Assembly: GCA_020200135.1 (NCBI GenBank)
Contig: JAIVJI010000007.1
Coordinates: forward strand, 64,420 to 128,419
Length of the DNA stretch: 64,000 bases
From: Acidobacteriota bacterium
Lineage (GTDB): Bacteria; Acidobacteriota; Blastocatellia; Pyrinomonadales; Pyrinomonadaceae
Reading direction: 5' to 3'
This document shows positions 4,701-62,600 of this stretch, in pieces. Made by a program: the position numbers and the translations under genes. The notes beneath the pieces are model-generated. The model was not told the origin of the DNA and ran no database searches. It saw nothing but the letters and a program-made list of their open reading frames with translations. The number at the start of each line of letters is the position of its first letter. Within the stretch, counting starts at the first letter, position 1.

Positions 4701-5304
4701 GCTCTTCTCCTTTCCAACGCGTCCCGGTCGGGTGCGGGATGCCGAACTGGTCGAGGAGGCGGAAGACGAGGTGGTCTACGAGCTGCTCGATGGTGCGCGG
4801 GCGGTGGTAGAAGCCGGGGCTCGCGGGGAAGACGCGCGCGCCCGCGTGCGCGAGCCGCACCATGTTCTCGAGGTGGATGGAATTGTAGGGCGTCTCGCGC
4901 ACGACGAGGACGAGCCGGCGCCCCTCCTTCAGCGTCACGTCGGCCGCGCGGTGAATCAGGTTCGTCACCGCGCCCGAGGCGATGGCGCCGAGCGTCCCCA
5001 TCGAGCACGGCACCACGACCATCCCCGCCTGCGGGTGCGAGCCCGACGAAGGCTTGGCCGCCATGTTGTCGAGCCGGTGGAACTGGATGAGCTTCGAGTC
5101 GGCGGGCAGCCCCACCCACTCGTTGACCGCGCGCACGTCGCCCGGCTCTATTTTCGCCCCCATCTCGACCCGCGCCACCGTGAGCGCGGACGCCGACATA
5201 ATGAGGTTGACGCGCTCGACCGCGCCGCTCGACGCCATGTGGGCGAGCGTGCGCTGCGCGTAGATGGAGCCGGAGGCTCCGGTGACCGCGACCGTCAGTT
5301 CCAT
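4696..5304 (-). CDS. ubiX: UbiX-family flavin prenyltransferase
   Basis: [20 protein letters not shown]...; [41 protein letters not shown]. Confidence 0.9.
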
Positions 5305-49227: not shown

Positions 49228-51672
49228 ATGAGCGCTTGCGCCGGCGATGATAATGTGTGGCCCGGGCTTTTGTCCACGATTGCAACAAAGGTCGGCGGCC
49301 GTCTGCTTCTAACGCTCGCGCTCGCGTGCGCCTGCGCGACCAATGACGTGGTTGTCGCGCAGCAGCCCTTCGTCCTGGGCGACGCGTTGGACGTGAGCCA
49401 GAACTTTCAGCGGATGGAGAACGTCTACTTCGTCGCCGCCCGCGTCAAAGAGTTTGACGCCGCGCGGGGGCGCGGGACGCTCCAGTGGGACAGGTACTCG
49501 CGCTCGACCACGCTCTCCTTCAACAAGATTGATGTGGGGCTCGGCCGCGCCAAAGCGACCGAGTTCCCCGGCACCGAGTACGACGCCGACCCCGCGCTGC
49601 CTTTCGCCATCGACTTCGTCAGCCCGCGCGTCGTCCGCCTGCGCTTCAACACGCGGCAGACGCCCTTGACGGACGAGCCTTCGCTGATGCTCGTCGGGAC
49701 TCCGCCGCGCGACAACTCGTGGAGAGTCGAGCAGACCGCCGAGGCGGTCACCTACACCGGCGCGCACGGCCGCGTCCGCATCGTCAGAGAGCCGTGGCGC
49801 GTCGAGTTCTACGACGCCGCCGGCCGGCTCCTGACGCGCACGCAAACGCAGGGCGACCCGCACACCTACTTCACGCCCGTCCCGTTCTCTTTCGTCCGCC
49901 GCGCCTCCGACCTGGGCCGGCGCGTCGCGGCGACGTTCGAGCTGGCACACGACGAAAAGATTTTCGGGTGCGGCGAAAGCTTCACGCGGCTCGACAAGCG
50001 CGGGCAGAAGGTCAACGCGTGGACGCGCGACGCGATGGGCGTGCAGAACGAGTGGATGTATAAACCCGTCCCGTTCTTCCTGTCGAGCCGCGGCTACGCG
50101 GTCTTCGCCCACACCTCCGCGCCCGTCACCTTCGACTTCGGCAAGACCTACGACCGCCACAACGTCGTCTACACGGCCGACGAGACGCTCGACCTCTTCG
50201 TCCTGCTCGGCGACCCGAAGGACGTGCTCTCCGAGTACACACAGCTTACGGGTCGCAGCCCCGTCCCGCCGCTCTGGTCGTTCGGCTTCTGGATGAGCCG
50301 CATCACCTACAAGTCTGAGGAAGAGGTGCGCGACGTGGCCGCCAAACTGCGCGCGCACCGCATCCCCTCGGACGTGATACACCTCGACACCGGCTGGTTC
50401 GAGACCGAGTGGCGGAGCAACTTTCAGTTCTCGCGGGCGCGCTTCCGCGACCCCGCGCGGATGATAGCCGACTTAAAGCGGCAGGGCTTCCGCGTGAGCC
50501 TCTGGCAGTACACGTACTTCACGCCGAAAAACGAGCTGTTCGGCGAGATAGTCTCCAGAGGCTACGCGGTGAGGGACGAGGGCGGGCGTCCGGCACCGGA
50601 GGACGCGGTGCTCGACATGTCCAACCCGGAGGCGGTGCGCTGGTATCAGTCGAAGCTCGCGGCGCTCCTCAAGCTCGGCGTCGGGGCCATCAAGGTCGAC
50701 TTCGGCGAGGGCGCGCCGGCCGCCGGCGTCTACGCCTCGGGGCGCACGGGGCTCCACGAGCACAACCTCTACCCGCTGCGCTACAACAAGGCCGTCGCCG
50801 ACGTGACGCGCGAGACGACCGGCGAGAGCGTCATCTGGGCGCGCTCGGCGTGGGCCGGGAGCCAGCGCTACCCACTGCACTGGGGCGGCGACGCGGAGAA
50901 CACCGACTCGGCGATGGCGGCGCAGCTTCGCGGCGGGCTCTCGTTCGGGCTGTCGGGCTTCACCTACTGGAGCCACGACGTGGGCGGCTTCGTAGACCGC
51001 GCGCCGCGCGACCTCTACCGGCGCTGGCTGGCGTGGGGCGTGCTCACCTCGCACACGCGCGCGCACGGCGCGCCGCCGCGCGAGCCGTGGGAGTATGACG
51101 AGGCGCTCGTCGAAGACTTCCGCCGCGCGCTCGGGCTGCGCTACTCGCTGATGCCTTACATCTGGGCGCAGGCGAAGGACTCTTCGGCGCGCGGCTTCCC
51201 CCTCCTGCGCGCGCTCTTCTTCGAGTACCCCGGCGACCCGACCTCCTGGACGATAGACGACCAGTACATGTTCGGCTCGGACCTCCTGGTCGCGCCTTTG
51301 ATGGAGCCGGGCGACGGCCGCCGCGTCTACCTCCCGCCGGGCGAGTGGATCGACTACCAGACGGGCGAGCTGCACCTGGGCGAGCGCTGGCGCCGGATAA
51401 AGGCCGGGCAAATTCCGGTCGTGCTCCTCGTCAGAAATCACTCGGCCGTCCCGCACGTGCGTGTAGCGCAGAGCACCGCCGACATCGACTGGCGCGGCGT
51501 CGAGCTGCGCGTCTTCAGCACCGACGACGCGCCGGCCTCCGGCCTCTTCGCGCTGCCCGACGGGGGCGCCCAGACGCTCGACCTTAAAGTCTCGGCCGGC
51601 TCCTACGCGCTGCAATCCGACCCGCTCCGGGGCCGTGTCAACTGGCGGGTCACGCGCTTCCCCGTACGCTAA
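49228..51672 (+). CDS. GH31 alpha-xylosidase/alpha-glucosidase
   Basis: LGVGAIKVDFGEGAP nucleophile region; GRSPVPPLWSFGFWMSR. Confidence 0.93.
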   Translation: MSACAGDDNVWPGLLSTIATKVGGRLLLTLALACACATNDVVVAQQPFVLGDALDVSQNFQRMENVYFVAARVKEFDAARGRGTLQWDRYSRSTTLSFNKIDVGLGRAKATEFPGTEYDADPALPFAIDFVSPRVVRLRFNTRQTPLTDEPSLMLVGTPPRDNSWRVEQTAEAVTYTGAHGRVRIVREPWRVEFYDAAGRLLTRTQTQGDPHTYFTPVPFSFVRRASDLGRRVAATFELAHDEKIFGCGESFTRLDKRGQKVNAWTRDAMGVQNEWMYKPVPFFLSSRGYAVFAHTSAPVTFDFGKTYDRHNVVYTADETLDLFVLLGDPKDVLSEYTQLTGRSPVPPLWSFGFWMSRITYKSEEEVRDVAAKLRAHRIPSDVIHLDTGWFETEWRSNFQFSRARFRDPARMIADLKRQGFRVSLWQYTYFTPKNELFGEIVSRGYAVRDEGGRPAPEDAVLDMSNPEAVRWYQSKLAALLKLGVGAIKVDFGEGAPAAGVYASGRTGLHEHNLYPLRYNKAVADVTRETTGESVIWARSAWAGSQRYPLHWGGDAENTDSAMAAQLRGGLSFGLSGFTYWSHDVGGFVDRAPRDLYRRWLAWGVLTSHTRAHGAPPREPWEYDEALVEDFRRALGLRYSLMPYIWAQAKDSSARGFPLLRALFFEYPGDPTSWTIDDQYMFGSDLLVAPLMEPGDGRRVYLPPGEWIDYQTGELHLGERWRRIKAGQIPVVLLVRNHSAVPHVRVAQSTADIDWRGVELRVFSTDDAPASGLFALPDGGAQTLDLKVSAGSYALQSDPLRGRVNWRVTRFPVR

Positions 51673-51691
51673 ACCAGGAGGGACTGTCTCG

Positions 51692-54082
51692 ATGGATTTG
51701 AACGCGACGCACACACTCCGACGGCCGCGAAACGTGCGCGCCGTCGCGCCGCTCTGCGCGCTGCTCGCGCTGCTCTGCGCCGCGCCGCGCGGGGCGTGGA
51801 CGCAAGCGGGGGCGCCCGACTACAGGAACCCGCGCCTGGCCGTAGAGCGGCGCGTGGCCGACCTGCTCGGGCGCATGACGCTCGAAGAGAAGTTGGCGCA
51901 GCTCGTCTGCCTGTGGGAGTCGAGGCCGGTGACGGAGCCGAAGGCCGGCTCCCCGAAACTCCACGGCGACTTCTCGCCGGAGAAGGCGCGCGGGGTGTTG
52001 AAGGACGGCGTGGGCCAGATAGCGCGACAGCGCGAGGGCAAAGAACCGCGCGAGGCCGCCCGCTTCGCCAACGCGCTCCAGAAGTGGCTCGTCGAAGAGA
52101 CGCGGCTCGGCATCCCGGCCATCTTCCACGACGAGATTCTGCACGGCCTGATGGCGCCGAAGGGGACGAGCTTCCCCACGCCCATCGCGCTCGCCAGCAG
52201 TTGGGACACCGAACTGGTCTCAAGAGTCTTCACCGCCGCCGCCTTAGAGACGCGCGCGCGCGGCAGCCACTTCGTGCTCGGCCCCAACCTCGACCTCGCG
52301 CGCGAGCCGCGCTGGGGGCGCACCGAAGAGACCTACGGCGAAGACCCCTACCTCGTCTCGCGGATGGGCGTCGCCGCCATCAAGGCGATTCAGGGGCCGG
52401 GGCCGAACGTGGACGGCGAGCACGTCGTCGCCGTCGCCAAGCACTTCGCCGCGCACGGCCAGCCCGAGGGCGGGACGAACATCGCGCCGGTCAACGTCTC
52501 GGAGCGCGTGCTGCGCGAGTACTTCCTGCCGAGCTTCGAGGCGGCGGTGAAGGAGGCGCGCGTGTTGAGCGTGATGGCCTCGTACAACGAGATGGACGGC
52601 GTCCCCTCGCACGCCAACCGCTGGCTGCTCCAGAAGGTGCTCCGCGACGAATGGGGCTTCGACGGGCTGGTCGCCTCGGACTACTACGGCATCCCGCAGC
52701 TCGAGAGCCTGCACCACGTCGCCTCCGACAAGACGGAGGCGGCGCGGCTCGCGCTCGAAGCGGGCGTGGACGCCGAGCTGCCCGACCCCGACTGCTTCCC
52801 CAGGCTCCTGCAACTCGTCAAAGACGGCCGGGTGTCGCAGGCGTCAATAGACAAAGCCGTCGCGCGGAACCTGCGCGTCAAGTTCCTGCTCGGACTCTTC
52901 GAGAACCCTTACGTCGACCCCGAGCGCGCCGCGCGCGTCACGAACTCCGAGGCACACCGCCGGCTCGCGGCCGAGGCCGCGCGTCGCTCGATAACGCTTC
53001 TGAAGAACGAGGGGAACCTCCTGCCGCTCGACCGCGGGCGCCTGAAGTCCATCGCCGTCATCGGCCCCAACGCCGACCGCGCGCACCTCGGCGGCTACAC
53101 CGACCCGAACCAGGGGGTCGGAATCAGCGTCCTCGAAGGCGTCAGGACAAAGCTCGGCGAACGCGTGAAGGTCAACTACGCGAAGGGCGTCCACATCACC
53201 CGCGAGGGCGGCGACTGGTGGGCCGACACGTCGCACCTCGCCGACCCGGCCGAGGACGAGAAGCTCATCGCCGAGGCGGCCGAAGTGGCGCGGGGCTCGG
53301 ACGTGGCGCTGCTCGTCTTAGGCGGCAACGAGGACACGAACAAAGAGGCGTGGTCGAACGACCACCTCGGCGACCGCGACAGCCTCGACCTCGTCGGCCG
53401 GCAGGACGACCTTGTCCGCGCCGTGCTGGCGACGGGCAGGCCCACCGTCGTCCTGCTCATCAACAGCGGGCCGCTCTCCGTCAACTACATCGCCGAGCGC
53501 GTCCTCGCCGTCCTCGAAGGTTTTTACCTCGGGCAGGAGACGGGCACGGGCGTGGCCGACGTGCTCTTCGGCGACTACAACCCGGCGGGCAAGCTGCCCG
53601 TCAGCTTCCCGCGCAACGTGGGGCAGCTCCCCGTCTACTACAACCAGAAGCCGACGGCGCGGCGCGGCTACCTCTACGCGAGCAAGGAGCCGCTGTTCGC
53701 GTTCGGCCACGGGCTGAGCTACACCACGTTCGAGTACTCGAACCTGACGGTGTCGCCCGCACGCATCACGCCGGGCGGCCGCGCGCGCGTGAGCGTCACC
53801 GTTAAGAACACGGGACGGCGCGCGGGCGACGAGGTCGTGCAGCTCTACGTGCGTGACCTCGTCAGCTCGGTCACGCGACCCGTCAGGGAGCTGAAGGACT
53901 TCCGGCGCGTCTCGCTCGCGCCCGGCGAGAGCAGGGCCGTCACGTTCGAAGTGACGCCCGACAAGCTCGCCTTCTTCAACCTGAACATGGAGCGCGTCGT
54001 CGAGCCGGGCTGGTTCGACATCATGGTCGGCACCAGCTCCGTCAAGTTCCAGACCGCGAAGCTTGAGGTGACGGCGCGTTGA
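51692..54082 (+). CDS. GH3 beta-glucosidase/xylosidase
   Basis: LVASDYYGIPQLESLH nucleophile region; C-terminal fibronectin-like domain. Confidence 0.95.
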   Translation: MDLNATHTLRRPRNVRAVAPLCALLALLCAAPRGAWTQAGAPDYRNPRLAVERRVADLLGRMTLEEKLAQLVCLWESRPVTEPKAGSPKLHGDFSPEKARGVLKDGVGQIARQREGKEPREAARFANALQKWLVEETRLGIPAIFHDEILHGLMAPKGTSFPTPIALASSWDTELVSRVFTAAALETRARGSHFVLGPNLDLAREPRWGRTEETYGEDPYLVSRMGVAAIKAIQGPGPNVDGEHVVAVAKHFAAHGQPEGGTNIAPVNVSERVLREYFLPSFEAAVKEARVLSVMASYNEMDGVPSHANRWLLQKVLRDEWGFDGLVASDYYGIPQLESLHHVASDKTEAARLALEAGVDAELPDPDCFPRLLQLVKDGRVSQASIDKAVARNLRVKFLLGLFENPYVDPERAARVTNSEAHRRLAAEAARRSITLLKNEGNLLPLDRGRLKSIAVIGPNADRAHLGGYTDPNQGVGISVLEGVRTKLGERVKVNYAKGVHITREGGDWWADTSHLADPAEDEKLIAEAAEVARGSDVALLVLGGNEDTNKEAWSNDHLGDRDSLDLVGRQDDLVRAVLATGRPTVVLLINSGPLSVNYIAERVLAVLEGFYLGQETGTGVADVLFGDYNPAGKLPVSFPRNVGQLPVYYNQKPTARRGYLYASKEPLFAFGHGLSYTTFEYSNLTVSPARITPGGRARVSVTVKNTGRRAGDEVVQLYVRDLVSSVTRPVRELKDFRRVSLAPGESRAVTFEVTPDKLAFFNLNMERVVEPGWFDIMVGTSSVKFQTAKLEVTAR

Positions 54083-55290
54083 GGCGGAAGCAACATCGTC
54101 GGGGCTTTGCCACGCGAGTCGTCCGGGCGTTCGCGCTCGTTCTCGTCGTCTGCGTGACGCCGGCGGCGGGCCAGACTCCGGGTCAGCCGCGTGACGCGGC
54201 CGGGAGACTGTCGGGCGTCCCCGCGTCGAGGCTGGCGCGGCTGCGGCGCGGCATCAACCTGAGCCACTGGTTCGCGCAGTCGCGCGACTACTCCGCGAAA
54301 CACCTGCGCGGGCACACCACGCGGGGCGACCTCGACCTCATCCGACGGCTCGGCTTCGACCACGTGCGCTTCACAGTCGAGCCCGCGCCGCTCTTCGACG
54401 AGGCGCGCCCGTCGCGGCTCAAGGGCGAACACCTCCGCCACCTCGACGTCGCGCTCGACATGCTCATGGCGTCGGGCGTGGCCGTCGTCTTCGACCTGCA
54501 CCCGGCCGACGAGTTCAAGCTCCGGCTGAGGGCGGACGACCGCTTCGTCTCTTCGGTCGCGGCCTTCTGGCGCGCGCTCGCGCGACACCTCTCGCGGCGC
54601 GACCCCGAGCGGCTCTTTCTCGAAATCCTCAACGAGCCGATGGTGGAAGACCCGCGGCGCTGGACGGACATCCAGACGCGGCTCGCGGCGGCCGTCCGCG
54701 AAGGCGCGCCGCACCACACCATCGTCGCCACGGGGCCGCGCTGGTCGGCCGTCGCCCAGTTGCTTTTGATGGAGCCGCTCGCAGACCGAAACGTCGTCTA
54801 CAACTTTCACTTCTACGAGCCGCACACCTTCACGCACCAGGGCGCGACGTGGGGCGCGGACTTCTGGCCGCACCTCAAAGGTCTGCCCTACCCTTCGAGC
54901 CCCGAGCGCGTCGCTCCGCTTTTACCCTCGGTCGAAACGGAGGCGGCGCGCGCGGCTTTGAAGGACTACGGCGGCGAGCGCTGGGACGCTGCGCGCGTCG
55001 GGCGCGAGGTCGCCCTGGCGGCGGAGTGGGCGCGGCGTCGCGGCGTCGCGCTCACGTGTAACGAGTTCGGCGTCTACCGCAGGTACGCGCCGCCGGCCGA
55101 CCGGCTGCGCTGGATAAAGGACGCGCGCGAGGCGTTCGAGCGTCACGGCATCGGCTGGACGATGTGGGACTATGCCGGCGACTTCGGCGTCGCCGTGCGA
55201 AGGGGCCGCCGCGTCGAGCCGGACGAGCTGACGGCCGCCGCGCTGGGACTGCGGCCGCTGAGATGGACGATTGGAGGGACCGACCGTTGA
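54079..55290 (+). CDS. GH5-like endoglucanase
   Basis: LFLEILNEPMVED acid/base region; TTGA overlap with GH3. Confidence 0.88.
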   Translation: MRRKQHRRGFATRVVRAFALVLVVCVTPAAGQTPGQPRDAAGRLSGVPASRLARLRRGINLSHWFAQSRDYSAKHLRGHTTRGDLDLIRRLGFDHVRFTVEPAPLFDEARPSRLKGEHLRHLDVALDMLMASGVAVVFDLHPADEFKLRLRADDRFVSSVAAFWRALARHLSRRDPERLFLEILNEPMVEDPRRWTDIQTRLAAAVREGAPHHTIVATGPRWSAVAQLLLMEPLADRNVVYNFHFYEPHTFTHQGATWGADFWPHLKGLPYPSSPERVAPLLPSVETEAARAALKDYGGERWDAARVGREVALAAEWARRRGVALTCNEFGVYRRYAPPADRLRWIKDAREAFERHGIGWTMWDYAGDFGVAVRRGRRVEPDELTAAALGLRPLRWTIGGTDR

Positions 55291-56786
55291 GCAAAAAACT
55301 ATCCAGACGAACTTTCGCGAAGGCCGCCGGCGCGGCGGCGCTCGCGGCCACGGCCTCGACGACGCCGTCGCCCGCTTCGACCGCCCTGACATCGACGCCG
55401 CAGGGCGGCGCGGGCGCGGCGTCATCCGGTCACGACGCGTTGCGGTCGTTCCCGCCCGGCTTCATCTGGGGCACGGCGACCGCCTCGTACCAGGTCGAGG
55501 GCGCGGTCAAAGAGGACGGGCGAGGGCCTTCCATCTGGGACACCTTCTCGCACACGCCCGGCAAGGTCGTCGGCAACGCCACGGGCGACGTGGCCAACGA
55601 CCACTACCACCTTTACAAAGGCGACGTGCAGTTGATGAAGGCGCTCGGCGTCAAGGCGTACCGCTTCTCCGTCGCGTGGCCGCGCGTCTTCCCAGGCGGC
55701 GACGGACGGCCGAACCCGAAGGGGCTCGACTTCTACAACCGGCTCGTCGACGAACTGCTCGCCAACGGCATCCAGCCCTTCGCCACGCTCTACCACTGGG
55801 ATTTGCCGCAGTCCTTACAAGACCGCTTCGGCGGCTGGGAGGGGCGCGACACCTCGAAGGCTTTCGCCGACTACGCCGCACACGTCAGCGCGCGCCTGAC
55901 CGACCGCGTCAAGCACGTCTTCACCATCAACGAGTTCGGCGCCTTCATCGAGGTCGGCTACCGCTGGGGCGTCCACGCGCCGGGCCTACGGCTTACGGGC
56001 TCGCGCCTGAACCAGACGCGCCACCACGCGGTGCTCGGCCACGGGCTGGCGGTGCAGGCCATCCGCGCCGCGGCGAAGCCGGGAACGAAAGTCGGCATCG
56101 CCGAGAACATCACGGTCGCCGCCCCCGTCTTCGAGTCGGCGGCGCACGTCGCGGCGGCCGAGCGCGCCACGCGCGAGATGAACGCGCAGTACCTGACCGT
56201 CATCATGGAAGGGAAGTACACCGACTGGTACTTGAAGTCGGCGGGCTCGGACGCGCCGAAGTTCACCGACGCGGACTTGAAGGCCATCTCGTCGCCGCTC
56301 GACTTCGTCGGCATCAACATCTACACGCCGCAGTTCGTGCGCGCCGACGAATCCTCCCCGGTCGGCTTCGCACACGTGCCGCACCCGAAGTCTTTCCCGC
56401 ACGCGCCGTCGCCGTGGCTCTTCGTCGGGCCGGAGGCGCTCTACTGGGGCCCGCGCCACGTCTCAAAGCTGTGGGGCGCGAAGGAGATTTACATCACGGA
56501 GAACGGCTGCTCGTCTTCGGACGAGCCGGCGCCGGACGGCAAGGTCTACGACACCGACCGCGTGACGTACCTGCGCAGCTACCTCACGCAACTGCGCCGC
56601 GCGACCGCCGAGGGCGTGCCCGTGCGCGGCTACTTCCTGTGGAGTCTGATGGACAACTTCGAGTGGGCGGACGGCTACACCAACCGCTTCGGCCTCCACT
56701 ACGTGGACTACGCGACGCAGAAGCGGAGCCCCAAGCTCAGCGCGGACTTCTACCGCGAGGTCATCGCGCGCAACACCGTCGTCTGA
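55287..56786 (+). CDS. GH1 beta-glucosidase with Tat-like signal
   Basis: TTGA overlap; LSRRTFAKAAGAAAL; FTINEFGAF, EIYITENGCS, GYFLWSLMDNFEW. Confidence 0.95.
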   Translation: MSKKLSRRTFAKAAGAAALAATASTTPSPASTALTSTPQGGAGAASSGHDALRSFPPGFIWGTATASYQVEGAVKEDGRGPSIWDTFSHTPGKVVGNATGDVANDHYHLYKGDVQLMKALGVKAYRFSVAWPRVFPGGDGRPNPKGLDFYNRLVDELLANGIQPFATLYHWDLPQSLQDRFGGWEGRDTSKAFADYAAHVSARLTDRVKHVFTINEFGAFIEVGYRWGVHAPGLRLTGSRLNQTRHHAVLGHGLAVQAIRAAAKPGTKVGIAENITVAAPVFESAAHVAAAERATREMNAQYLTVIMEGKYTDWYLKSAGSDAPKFTDADLKAISSPLDFVGINIYTPQFVRADESSPVGFAHVPHPKSFPHAPSPWLFVGPEALYWGPRHVSKLWGAKEIYITENGCSSSDEPAPDGKVYDTDRVTYLRSYLTQLRRATAEGVPVRGYFLWSLMDNFEWADGYTNRFGLHYVDYATQKRSPKLSADFYREVIARNTVV

Positions 56787-57600: not shown

Positions 57601-57793
57601 TGAGCGTCTCCTTTGTGTAAGGCCAAAGAACGTGGCGGACATCCTTTAGGCAGGACTGTGAGAGGCGAGGCAAGAGCGCCGAGGTACAGCGCGCGCAGTA
57701 TACTCCTCCCGCGACACGCCGCAAGACCTTTTTTCAAGCCGCGCACACGACCAGAACCGCACACGCAATCCCCGCGCGCCACGCTTCGATAAA

Positions 57794-57960
57794 CTTACAC
57801 GTCGCTACGCCACACTCTCACGCCGCTGCAAAAAACTCTCGCGCATATACGGCCGACTCTCGCACCTCTACGCTCAACTCTCACGCCCGTACAACCGACG
57901 TTTACGCAGCTACGAGAAACTTTCACGCCGTTACGATAAACTTCCCTTATGCTACAGCCG
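57794..57960. repeat. degenerate 21-bp tandem repeat, about 8 units
   Basis: cttacacgtcgctacgccaca / ctctcacgccgctgcaaaaaa / ctctcgcgcatatacggccga / ctctcgcacctctacgctcaa / ctctcacgcccgtacaaccga / cgtttacgcagctacgagaaa / ctttcacgccgttacgataaa / cttcccttatgctacagccg. Confidence 0.85.
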
Positions 57961-58096: not shown

Positions 58097-58219
58097 CACC
58101 CGGGGCAAGCCAAACGGCTCGGCTTCTCACGTCCCGTTGCGGGCTTAGACCGACTGATTCGGCTTTTACAGCCCCATTGCGTAGTTAGACCGAATCATTC
58201 GGCACAATAGTAGTTATGC
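58097..58219 (+). repeat. 40-bp degenerate direct repeats ending in GTTATGC; candidate attI-like site
   Basis: ttgcgggcttagaccgactgattcggcttttacagcccca / ttgcgtagttagaccgaatcattcggcacaatagtagtta, plus weaker upstream copy. Confidence 0.5.
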
Positions 58220-58231
58220 GTCTTCAATCCC

Positions 58232-58603
58232 ATGGGTGAGCTGGCTCGTATTGAAGCAGAGGTTACGTTCATCCCCGCATCCGAGGGCGGGCGGCTCAAC
58301 CCTCCGCTGCTTGTATCTTCAGGCGGCTCGTACCGACCTCACATCGTTGTCGGCGATCCGAAGCAGAGACGTGCCATCACCGTCGGGAACGAAATCCGGG
58401 AGACCTACCTCGGCGTGGCATTCCTGTCAGGCCCGGACAAGGTGGAGGCAGGCGATCCATTCTTGGCGGAGCTTGCGCTAATATTTTATCCGCATCCGGC
58501 GTATGACTCGCTCGTGCCCGGCGCGACGTTTACAATCCGCGAAGGGGCTAAGGTCGTCGGGTTCGGAGAGGTAAAGAAATTTCTGCCACCCGGCGACGCC
58601 TAA
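58232..58603 (+). CDS. cassette 1: EF-Tu C-terminal-domain-like hypothetical protein
   Basis: RPHIVVGDPKQR...GVAFLSGPDKVEAGDPFLAELALIFYPHPAYDSLVPGATFTIREGAKVVGFGEV. Confidence 0.75.
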   Translation: MGELARIEAEVTFIPASEGGRLNPPLLVSSGGSYRPHIVVGDPKQRRAITVGNEIRETYLGVAFLSGPDKVEAGDPFLAELALIFYPHPAYDSLVPGATFTIREGAKVVGFGEVKKFLPPGDA

Positions 58604-58686
58604 CAACGGCATGCACCCGACCCGCGACACGCAGGCTCTCATCTTCAGCAGAGGGGCCGGCGGGCGGGTGATGCCGGGCGTTATGC
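58598..58686 (+). other. attC site 1
   Basis: gcctaacaacggcatgcacccg ... cgggtgatgccgggcgttatgc imperfect inverted arms. Confidence 0.88.
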
Positions 58687-58718
58687 TGCTGCGCCGGAAA
58701 AGTAAAATAATTGTCATC

Positions 58719-59465
58719 ATGAATGTACTTGCAGCCAATCCGCACATCTCTTTAGTGATTCCGGCATACAATGAAGCTGCGCTGCTTCCAAGACTGCTGG
58801 ATTCTATAGATATAGCGCGGCAAGTATTTGCAAGGTCAGGCGGCACTGTAGAGATTATTGTAGCTGATAATTGCTCGATAGATGAGACACGAATGATAGC
58901 CGCCGGACGGGACTGTAAGGTTGTCTCTGTTGAGCAAAGATGTATTGCCGCCGTGCGTAACGCGGGGGCCAAAATCGCTATGGGTAAATTACTAGCCTTC
59001 GTTGACGCCGACGGGACTATTCACCCGCAAACATTCAAGCAGTTATCCCAAATCCTCGCAGACGATTCAATCGTAGGCGGGGCTACCGGCGTAACATTAG
59101 AACGTTGGTCGCTCGGGCTAGCCGTAACGTACGCTCTCATCTATCCTTTTCTTGTCTTGACGAGAATGGATACAGGAGTAGTTTTTTGTCGTCGTGCAGA
59201 TTTCGATCTGATTGGTGGTTATGATGAGCGACTAAAGTTCGCGGAGGATGTAGCGTTTTTATGGGCGTTGAGATGTTTAGGGAAGAGGCGCGGGCAGCGA
59301 TTAACACGCGCCACATGTATCAGGGGAGTAGCCTCTACGCGTAAATTTGATGAGCATGGAGATTGGCATTACTTCTGGCTTCTCCGGAAAGTAGCGGTGT
59401 GTATGTTCAACCGCAAAAAGGTTGAAGAGATCGCCGACAGCTACTGGTATAAACCGAGCCGCTAG
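58719..59465 (+). CDS. cassette 2: family 2 glycosyltransferase
   Basis: HISLVIPAYNEAALLPRLLDSI...LLAFVDADGTIHP. Confidence 0.9.
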   Translation: MNVLAANPHISLVIPAYNEAALLPRLLDSIDIARQVFARSGGTVEIIVADNCSIDETRMIAAGRDCKVVSVEQRCIAAVRNAGAKIAMGKLLAFVDADGTIHPQTFKQLSQILADDSIVGGATGVTLERWSLGLAVTYALIYPFLVLTRMDTGVVFCRRADFDLIGGYDERLKFAEDVAFLWALRCLGKRRGQRLTRATCIRGVASTRKFDEHGDWHYFWLLRKVAVCMFNRKKVEEIADSYWYKPSR

Positions 59466-59479
59466 GTGTCTCGACCGCA

Positions 59480-59587
59480 GCATAACAACTCGTTCAACCG
59501 GAGCGCGGATTGAATTCTTCTCATCATTGACTGCTTCGATGGAAGTTGAATACTTCTTGCCGCGCCCGGTTAATTCGGGCGTTGTGC
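59480..59587 (+). other. attC site 2
   Basis: gcataacaactcgttcaaccgg ... ccggttaattcgggcgttgtgc. Confidence 0.88.
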
Positions 59588-59598
59588 GCTAGCGGGTT

Positions 59599-60048
59599 AT
59601 GAACATGAGACAATTTCTCGAAGGCCTGAAGGTGATCGCCTACCCTGCATGCTTCGTCGTCGGCATGATGGCAACGCCGGCTTACGGCATATTCAGCGGC
59701 GTGTTCTGGGGGAAGAACATCCAGACGCTCGAATCCCCGAACGGCGAACATCGCGCCGTGCTCCTGAAAAAGTTTAACCTCGCCGACATTAACTTCATCG
59801 TCAAGGTTGACGGCGAGCGGGTCTACTACTCGCCGGACTTGATGGGCTTCCCCGACCGCTGGTACCGGGAGACGCTAGTGTGGGATAAGACGGGCAGGGT
59901 CGTCGTGCTGGAGTTGATGGGGAAACGGGTCTTTGCCTACGACACCCAAACAAAGCGGGAATTACAGAAGGGCGAGTTGAATCAATATCAGCTCTGGCCC
60001 ATGCCGTCTGACCACAATTATGCTGACCTGAAAGATATAGATGAATAG
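59599..60048 (+). CDS. cassette 3: hypothetical membrane-anchored protein
   Basis: 149 aa ORF bounded by attC sites. Confidence 0.75.
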   Translation: MNMRQFLEGLKVIAYPACFVVGMMATPAYGIFSGVFWGKNIQTLESPNGEHRAVLLKKFNLADINFIVKVDGERVYYSPDLMGFPDRWYRETLVWDKTGRVVVLELMGKRVFAYDTQTKRELQKGELNQYQLWPMPSDHNYADLKDIDE

Positions 60049-60071
60049 TTGCTATAGTAGTCCCTCGGCGC

Positions 60072-60183
60072 GCATAACAACGGCATGCACCCGACCGCCC
60101 TTTGCTTGGCTGTCATCAACCTCGCGTCTTGCGATGTGGCTTGTGTGTCATCGTCGGGCGGCGGGATAATTCGAGCGTTAGGC
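60072..60183 (+). other. attC site 3
   Basis: gcataacaacggcatgcacccgaccgcc ... ggcggcgggataattcgagcgttaggc. Confidence 0.85.
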
Positions 60184-60279
60184 GCTTGTGGGGGCCCACA
60201 CGCTGGACAAACCTTAATTATAAGCGTCGCTGCTCGGAGCGAAGGCGGGGAGATTACTCAGATGCATAGCGGAGAGACT

Positions 60280-61563
60280 ATGAACCGGCGTCACTTTCTC
60301 AACGCCCTGGCAGGTGCCGCCATAGCTGCGCCGAGCCTCGTCGGTTGTGCGGCTTGGGCGACTACTCGGCCCGCGCGCCGCTGGGCTGCTGTGCAGAGAC
60401 TTCTCGATGGGTACGTCGCCGACAAGAAGATGGCGGGTGTGACCGCGGCGCTGTCCTTCGGGGGCTCACCGCCCGCCTACCCGTCCGCTGGTCACATCGC
60501 GCTCGATTCGGCCGTGCGCTTCGACGAGAACAGCCTGTGTCGCATCTACTCGATGACTAAACCAGTCACCGGCGCCGCGGCGATGATGCTCGTCGAGGAC
60601 GGCAGGATAAAGCTCGACCAGCCGGTCGCCGACGTGCTGCCTGAATTCCGCTCCTTGCGCGTCGCGATTGACATCCAGAAAAGCATGGAATCGCGCCCCG
60701 CCGTCAAGACGATGACGATGCGCCACCTGTTGACGCACACGTCGGGCCTCAGCTACTGGACCCCAAGCTCCGGCGCGGGCGTGCTCCCCACGGCCTACCG
60801 CGAGCGCGGCATCACGCCGGGTAACTACGGCGCGCGCCTCAACCGGCCCGGATACGGCCCGCAGGCGCGGGGCCTCGCCGAGATGGTCGAGCGCGTCGCG
60901 GAACTTCCACTCTTGTGCGAGCCGGGAACTGCTTACAACTATTCGATCGGACTCGACGTGATGGGGCTGGTGATCGAGCGCGTCGCAGGCCGTGGCTTCG
61001 ACGTGTTCCTTCGCGAACGATTGTTCGGCCCGCTCGACATGAGTTCGACCGGCTTCCAGGTCGCGCCGAAGAACGTTGCGCGCCTGACGACCAACTATGA
61101 CGTAACGCCGGAGGGTTTGAGACCCACCGATTCAGCCGCATCGAGCGTCTGGCTCCGACCGCCGACGCTCATCGCGGGTGGCGCCGGGCTAATTTCGACC
61201 GCGCGCGATTTCGCTCGCTTCGGCGCGATGCTGCTCGGAGATGGGGCACTGGGGCGCGTTCGAGTCTTGAAACCTAAGACGGCACGCCTCACGCGCTCGA
61301 ACCTGCTTCCGGCGGGCGTTGTCTACTCGGGCGGGGACGGATTCGGCGCCGGGGCGGCCTTGGTGCTGAACGGCACCAACCGGCGTTTCGGCCCGCCCGG
61401 CAGTTTTGGCTGGGGTGGCGCCGCCGGAACGCTCTGGAGGATCGACCCCGCGCGCCGGGGGAACATGGTCTTCATGAGCCAGCACATGCCCCCCACGACC
61501 TACCCCATTCGTGAGAATATGGCCGCCGCGATTGAGGCTGACATCAAGCAAGAGAAAGGCTGA
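60280..61563 (+). CDS. cassette 4: class C beta-lactamase-like serine hydrolase with signal peptide
   Basis: ggagag SD, MNRRHFLNALAGAAIAAPSLVGC; YSMTKPVTG (SxxK); YNYS. Confidence 0.88.
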   Translation: MNRRHFLNALAGAAIAAPSLVGCAAWATTRPARRWAAVQRLLDGYVADKKMAGVTAALSFGGSPPAYPSAGHIALDSAVRFDENSLCRIYSMTKPVTGAAAMMLVEDGRIKLDQPVADVLPEFRSLRVAIDIQKSMESRPAVKTMTMRHLLTHTSGLSYWTPSSGAGVLPTAYRERGITPGNYGARLNRPGYGPQARGLAEMVERVAELPLLCEPGTAYNYSIGLDVMGLVIERVAGRGFDVFLRERLFGPLDMSSTGFQVAPKNVARLTTNYDVTPEGLRPTDSAASSVWLRPPTLIAGGAGLISTARDFARFGAMLLGDGALGRVRVLKPKTARLTRSNLLPAGVVYSGGDGFGAGAALVLNGTNRRFGPPGSFGWGGAAGTLWRIDPARRGNMVFMSQHMPPTTYPIRENMAAAIEADIKQEKG

Positions 61564-61615
61564 CCGGAAGGCCGACCGAGTGCTATTTTGCTGAGAGATC
61601 GGACATCCGGCCGGC

Positions 61616-61699
61616 GCCTAGCAACGGCATGCACCCGACGCCCCGCAGCGTACCTATCGTGATAGTTGAACAGGGGCGCGGGTGATGCCGGCGTCAGGT
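61616..61699 (+). other. attC site 4 (variant core)
   Basis: gcctagcaacggcatgcacccgacgcccc ... ggggcgcgggtgatgccggcgtcaggt. Confidence 0.75.
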
Positions 61700-61741
61700 T
61701 GCTTTGTGTGAGGCGCGGGAAGAGTTGAAGGAGACGTTGGT

Positions 61742-62533
61742 GTGACAAACATTGGGACGGTCGAAAGTTTATGGCGTTACCCGGTTAAAAGTATGAGCGG
61801 CGAGGCGATGGCCGAAGCGTTTATGGGGTTTTCCGGCTTTTACGGCGACCGGTGCTTCGCCTTCAGGAATTCAGCCGCGCGCAAAGGATTTCCTTATCTG
61901 AACGCAACAGTGCAGCAGCAAATGCTGTGCTATCGTCCACAGTTTCGTTACGCCGAAAGGGCGGCGAAACCGCCGAATTTGCTCGAAGCGATGAGCATCG
62001 CGCCCGGTGTCACCCCGGCAAACGCCGAGCCGAACGACCTCACGTTGGATGTCGTCACGCCGTCGGGGGCGGTCGTCGCCGTTGACGACCCGGCGTTGAT
62101 AGAGATGCTCGGCGAAGGATTGCGCGGTGAAAATCAACTCACGCTCGTGCGTTCGGATCGCGCGCTGACCGACTGTCGCCCGGTTTCGTTGATGAGCCTG
62201 CAAACCGTCCGACAGGTCGAAGCGGAGCTGGGCATTCCGATTGATAAACGACGCTTTCGGGCAAACGTCTATCTCGACCTCGCGGCGGACGAAGGCTTTG
62301 CCGAGGATGAGTTGGTCGGGCGCCGCCTGCGTATCGGTTCGAGCGCGGTGGTCATGGTTCTGGAACGCGACCCGCGCTGTAAGATAATCTCGCTCGACCC
62401 TGACACGGGCGAACACAACCCGGAAGTGTTGCGCAAAGTCGCCCAGGCACACGCAGCCTTCGCCGGTGTTTACTGCGCCGTTTTGGTCGAAGGAATTTTG
62501 ACGAATAGCGATTCCATCGAGCTGTTGGACTAA
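61742..62533 (+). CDS. cassette 5: MOSC domain protein
   Basis: TVESLWRYPVKSMSGEAMAEAFMGFSGFYGDRCFAF...RFRANVYLDL. Confidence 0.88.
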   Translation: MTNIGTVESLWRYPVKSMSGEAMAEAFMGFSGFYGDRCFAFRNSAARKGFPYLNATVQQQMLCYRPQFRYAERAAKPPNLLEAMSIAPGVTPANAEPNDLTLDVVTPSGAVVAVDDPALIEMLGEGLRGENQLTLVRSDRALTDCRPVSLMSLQTVRQVEAELGIPIDKRRFRANVYLDLAADEGFAEDELVGRRLRIGSSAVVMVLERDPRCKIISLDPDTGEHNPEVLRKVAQAHAAFAGVYCAVLVEGILTNSDSIELLD

Positions 62534-62566
62534 AAGCGCGACGCGGCAACCAAAATATTGCGTTAT

Positions 62567-62600
62567 CTCTAACAGAGGCCTGCGCCCGACGCCCCGCCAG
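62567..62600 (+). other. truncated attC (left half only)
   Basis: ctctaacagaggcctgcgcccgacgccccgcc matches the left arms of sites 1-4; no matching right arm. Confidence 0.5.

Follow-up and report, generated by a model that had tools for sequence, protein, structure and literature searches.

A gene-cassette array without an integrase, preceded by a recurrent attI-like leader, in an acidobacterial genome

Within an integron cassette, the start (GTTRRRY) is complementary to the core at the end. Clusters of at least 2 attC sites without an integron integrase nearby are defined as CALINs in IntegronFinder, and they are commonly seen as wreckage or stray insertions. Their published origins include off-target insertion, loss of intI and rearrangement (PMC8618304), whereas integrons proper typically carry a single attI, beside intI (PMC9024848). 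Cassettes can also enter attG targets, which, in the work of Loot et al. 2024 as cited in PMC12901181, diverge from classical att sites in sequence and structure, and Delta-attI-type cassettes (PMC12901181) hold a piece of attI within unusual cassettes of mobile integrons.

Here, we describe an array in a 64-kb stretch of genomic DNA (hereafter, the window). It falls under the CALIN definition, with more than 2 attC sites, cassettes and no intI nearby, but differs in that an attI-like site, common to several arrays in the genome, lies at its first junction. With sedentary chromosomal integrons, complete examples of which are present in relatives of the same family, it shares attC sites, cassette junctions and an attI-like core at G^TT; however, these integrons typically have 1 attI by intI, whereas about 8 attI-like sites without intI are found here. 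Like attG insertions, the cassettes lie in the chromosome away from intI, but here a single element, conserved and repeated, serves as the target. Finally, part of attI is displaced from intI in Delta-attI cassettes as well, although in the present case the attI-like site opens chromosomal arrays. In the open-access literature, to which the search was limited, we found no description of dispersed arrays supplied by multiple attI copies.

attC sites and gene cassettes

The array comprises the following features.

58214..58680, plus strand: gene cassette 1, from the TT to the G of its own attC (start GTTATGCGTC, reverse complement of the end GTTAGGCGTC)
58232-58603, plus strand: ORF of cassette 1, 123 aa, no family and no Pfam match
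58598..58686, plus strand: attC site 1 (R2 E 2.9e-27; bottom-strand fold z −3.56)
58681..59581, plus strand: gene cassette 2 (identical start and end 10-mers, GTTATGCTGC)
58719-59465, plus strand: ORF of cassette 2, family 2 glycosyltransferase (PF00535, E 8e-19)
59480..59587, plus strand: attC site 2, divergent arms GTTCAACCGG/CCGGTTAATTC (R2 E 3e-9; fold z −3.45)
59582..60177, plus strand: gene cassette 3 (start GTTGTGCGCT, end GTTATGCGCG)
59599-60048, plus strand: ORF of cassette 3, 149 aa, no match in Pfam or NCBIfam
60072..60183, plus strand: attC site 3, apparently mosaic or decayed, arms partly complementary (R2 E 3.8e-7; fold z −0.74)
60178..61693, plus strand: gene cassette 4 (start GTTAGGCGCT, end GCTAGGCGCC)
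ending at 61563, plus strand: ORF of cassette 4, beta-lactamase-family serine hydrolase (PF00144, E 3e-62)
61616..61699, plus strand: attC site 4, with a degenerate right core, GTCAGGT (R2 E 1.5e-14; fold z −3.50)
61694..62600, plus strand: possible cassette 5, ending in a truncated attC with the left arm only (approximately 62567-62600)
61742-62533, plus strand: ORF of possible cassette 5, MOSC domain (PF03473, E 4e-15)

The covariance model used for detection, R2, was trained on 28 attC sites of the congener G003 and on none from the window; it was made with G003 sites alone because an earlier model, R1, contained the 4 sites of the window. Across the 64 kb, R2 returned exactly 4 attC matches, all on the plus strand (E 2.9e-27 to 3.8e-7; next best match, E 0.18), and these are the same 4 sites, each following 1 plus-strand ORF, that a sequence-only reading of the window had proposed. 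In the whole genome, the attC left-arm pattern has 27 matches and the reversed control pattern has none. The inner stem of 24 attC sites displays changes on both sides at 13 of the 16 pairs, a level reached in 0 of 500 shuffles, and the bottom strands of sites 1, 2 and 4 fold better as DNA than shuffled sequences (z −3.6, −3.5 and −3.5, respectively). By contrast, no folding advantage over shuffles was obtained for the bottom strand of site 3 (z −0.74). Thus, R''/R' cores, imperfect inner arms and a bottom-strand fold are combined in sites 1, 2 and 4, and the arm complementarity that the sequence-only reading ascribed to all 4 sites is only partial in the poorly folding site 3. The latter looks mosaic or decayed because its upper arm, GGCATGCA, has no complementarity to TAATTCG. 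Further signs of decay in the array are the core of site 4 and a fifth attC remnant at 62567, which consists of a left arm only (approximately 62567-62600, repeat family D1) and received no score from R2. A final attC without its right half is frequent among the arrays (L137, L133, L135, L172 and the window remnant at 62567). An Rfam scan of the window matched no family.

Cassettes 1 to 4 span the TT of one core to the G of the next and have complementary own ends. The possible fifth unit departs from this pattern: no complementarity between its start and end was seen by eye, and homologues of the MOSC ORF in 2 congeners have no attC directly downstream, so that 61694..62600 could be either a fifth cassette or a flanking gene. 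The GC content of cassettes 1 to 4 is 0.594, 0.492, 0.548 and 0.654, respectively, compared with 0.684 for the window; the drop had been noticed in cassettes 1 and 2, where it is indeed present, but it is strongest in cassettes 2 and 3. The C-terminal half of the cassette 1 ORF displays a weak likeness to EF-Tu (E 0.7-1).

The junctions were also analyzed genus-wide. Among 75 array cassettes, the first 10 nt fit the reverse-complemented end of the same cassette (z 14.8 compared with shuffled pairs), and the same 10-nt fit to the own end is found when the 17 first cassettes are scored separately (z 7.7). The fit drops to background at position 11. Given established integron biology, a fit that stops at this position suggests that the units formerly moved as circles. 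Collectively, folds, stem covariation, junction matches and the R2 scan bear out the attC/gene-cassette architecture recognized earlier.

The attI-like leader and its counterparts

Cassette 1 is directly preceded by a leader with the following organization.

58119..58213, plus strand: attI-like leader, 2 repeats of 40 bp followed by a core ending CCGAATCATTCGGCACAATAGTA-G
58119-58158 and 58159-58198, plus strand: the 40-bp repeats of the leader

The last base of the leader core, ACCGAATCATTCGGCACAATAGTA, is the G of the first GTT (58213), which places a G^TT insertion point at the array start, as expected of an attI site. Position 58213, from which the array had been counted, is exactly the first cassette junction, and the crossover is expected between G58213 and T58214. 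In the same genome (G000), a matching leader precedes arrays on 5 other contigs (C104, C40, C67, C46 and C98), and 2 further leaders were detected, namely, a variant on C65 that terminates in the 40-bp unit rather than in the usual core, and a weak one on C120 (nhmmer E 0.007). Homologous leaders also precede arrays of the congeners G002 and G003, supporting the acidobacterial origin suspected from the sequence, these congeners being labelled as Acidobacteriota MAGs. In every case, the homology breaks off at G^TT. The final 24 nt of 6 leaders from G000 are 83-100% identical, compared with 28% for random 24-mers. Altogether, about 8 attI-like platforms appear to occupy different places in the G000 genome.

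Pattern searches with up to 3 mismatches in 4 genomes revealed no leader copy away from arrays; a general dispersed repeat was considered and rejected, copies occurring at array starts only. No leader copy without cassettes was found, and insertion at the leader was therefore read from the junctions. Arrays on C39, C9 and C25 had no detectable leader; the C32 array and a second array on C104 run to the contig end. No sigma-70 promoter was found in the leader and, hence, we do not claim a Pc promoter. The interval that separates the leader from the upstream gene contains, at 57782-57950, a short stretch of degenerate, low-scoring 21-bp tandem repeats resembling ACGCAGCTACGAGAAACTTTC.

The relative G020 is a member of the same family with an intact intI on contig C102. 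Approximately 100 bp from this intI lies a site ending in TGCGGAACTCTTCCGCATATACAGTA^GTT, which is present in 3 copies identical at 29/29 nt, one beside intI on C102 and the others in front of arrays on C114 and C128. The stretch common to these sites covers only 89-100 bp (93-94% identity) and contains no intI, and divergent versions of the site precede 3 further arrays. The identical recurrence of the intI-side site before 2 other arrays is the reason why leader 58119-58213 is best read, by sequence comparison, as a stand-alone copy of attI. In 4 other relatives (G008, G014, G027 and G036), the intI-adjacent sites are built on the same plan, a palindromic stretch followed by AAT, 3-4 nt, TA and GTT; beyond the genus of the window, the generic motif TATAATNNNTAGTTRGRY was too strict. 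G017 contains 9 copies of a leader of its own, each directly in front of an array, and no intI was found in this 95% complete assembly. The leader-before-array pattern was thus seen in at least 3 genera. Within the genus itself, the only intI available for comparison is the decayed one of G003, and the site next to it, GGTCTAATGGTA^GTT, is partly similar to the genus leader. The key genomes are available as drafts, and at least 2 of them are MAGs.

Integrase decay and cassette turnover in the genus

No tyrosine recombinase had been recognized in the window, and the search for intI was negative both there and in the whole assembly of G000 (5.27 Mb, 137 contigs, 93.5% complete), with no match at 1e-40. 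The only tyrosine recombinases detected reach 20-80 bits, the cut-off being 265, and the top 2 lack profile positions of approximately 185-240, the stretch that distinguishes IntI. Accordingly, no intI adjoining attI, as in a complete integron, was found in this 93%-complete assembly, which contains approximately 33 attC sites on about a dozen contigs. Since arrays break assemblies, intI could sit in the missing 6% or so. Among 60 genomes, including G000 and its relatives, 42 contain attC sites and 29 contain intI. The genus seems to be losing the gene, judging from G003, in which only an N-terminal fragment remains upstream of a 28-cassette array, and from G001, in which the intI reading frame is broken near the C-terminus. 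The dispersed arrays fetched from G000 and G002 had no intI remnant nearby, matches being confined to L144 and L159.

Comparison of orthologous loci points to changes in cassette content. G000 contig C65 and G002 contig C50 have both flanks in common (83-85%) and a leader in each, and their cassettes differ. Similarly, the right flank is common to C120 of G000, C26 of G002 and C55 of G003, whose cassettes differ. Certain cassettes have counterparts at different loci in congeners (e.g., 83% between G002 C67 and G003 C103). Because orthologous platforms hold different cassettes, we infer that cassettes were turned over at the platforms after the species split, while some integrase was present. 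At the window locus, the left neighbor genes are kept in G002 contig C56, and the right side is unmatched, the G000 contig ending there. No tRNA or tmRNA gene was found at the array borders.

Origin of the dispersed arrays

We consider it likely that the array was built by an integron integrase acting at a stand-alone copy of attI, one of about 8 such platforms dispersed over the genome. The evidence for this reading consists of the attC sites, the junctions, the shared leader that ends at them, the identity, within G020, of such leaders with the intI-side site and the cassette differences between orthologous platforms. The platform would be the leader at 58119-58213, with its repeated palindromic units and a core ending at G^TT, which IntI would bind and cut. 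Cassettes would arrive as circles, the folded bottom strand of attC recombining at the G^TT of the leader, and successive insertions would yield the 4, perhaps 5, cassettes. The best reading is a multi-platform integron, in which IntI, encoded elsewhere in the genome, would act in trans on the dispersed attI copies, the integrase being now lost or unseen in G000. Given that no intI was found in G000, the array is probably now fixed, or else depends on an integrase that lies outside the assembly. As to the spread of attI (90-140 bp), one idea is that a circle carrying attI and attC inserts elsewhere, and the Delta-attI cassettes might hint at the way in which attI spreads.

The alternative that survives best, albeit an unlikely one, is that several complete intI-attI-attC integrons each later lost intI, leaving attI and an array behind. 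Loss of intI does occur in the genus (the N-terminal fragment in G003 and the broken frame in G001) and several attC sites are decayed, but none of the dispersed arrays fetched from G000 or G002 retains an intI remnant, and the stretch common to the sites in G020 spans merely 89-100 bp without intI. Considerably less probable is off-target insertion by IntI into ordinary chromosomal sites of the attG type without involvement of attI: although this process is established, as cited in PMC12901181, figures among the proposed origins of CALINs (PMC8618304) and would agree with the arrays here that lack a detectable leader, unrelated attG targets would neither have in common an 85-140 bp repeat-bearing leader otherwise absent from the genome nor match the intI-adjacent site. 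Hardly credible is a distal piece of a single large chromosomal integron that rearrangement has split up, for which the division of the assembly into 137 contigs and the inflation of CALIN counts in draft genomes (PMC9024848) can be invoked, since such a piece would not open with a leader and a cassette that, at the leader junction, is complementary to its own end, and 2 of the array loci have orthologs in other species and are flanked by host DNA. The sequence-only reading had proposed either a CALIN or the distal portion of a chromosomal integron; the former applies by definition, and the latter is contradicted by the leader, which ends at the first junction in front of cassette 1 and recurs, with arrays, on other contigs.

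The published origins are a poor fit for a CALIN that has an attI copy of its own, shared with other arrays. For the family as a whole, we lean, by a narrow margin, toward a scheme in which attI multiplies as a stand-alone element of approximately 90-140 bp and a single integrase acts on the copies in trans, so that the integron would be distributed genome-wide. If attI copies are dispersed and act in trans, many CALINs could be capture sites that work or once worked, and several chromosomal places in one genome could receive cassettes at the same time. IntegronFinder 2 detects no attI outside class 1 (PMC9024848), and tools ignoring attI would, if the scheme is true, miss dispersed platforms. 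The number of CALINs with a hidden shared attI in other phyla thereby becomes a testable question.

Several observations concern the surroundings of the arrays. Loci L172 (G003 C18) and L186 (G002 C94), from different species, contain an identical 1.8-kb stretch with a leader, 1 cassette and a truncated attC, which may represent a contig shared through binning or a very recent transfer. In L147 (G002 C26), the end of the right-flank gene is duplicated upstream of the leader (reverse strand, approximately 2580-2690 and 5080-5180), and the duplication is accompanied by a gene of 157-161 aa that also precedes the leaders of C46 and C120 in G000. Directly upstream of the window array, at 51635-56786, ORFs resemble, by eye, a glycoside hydrolase cluster (GH3, GH5 and GH1 types).
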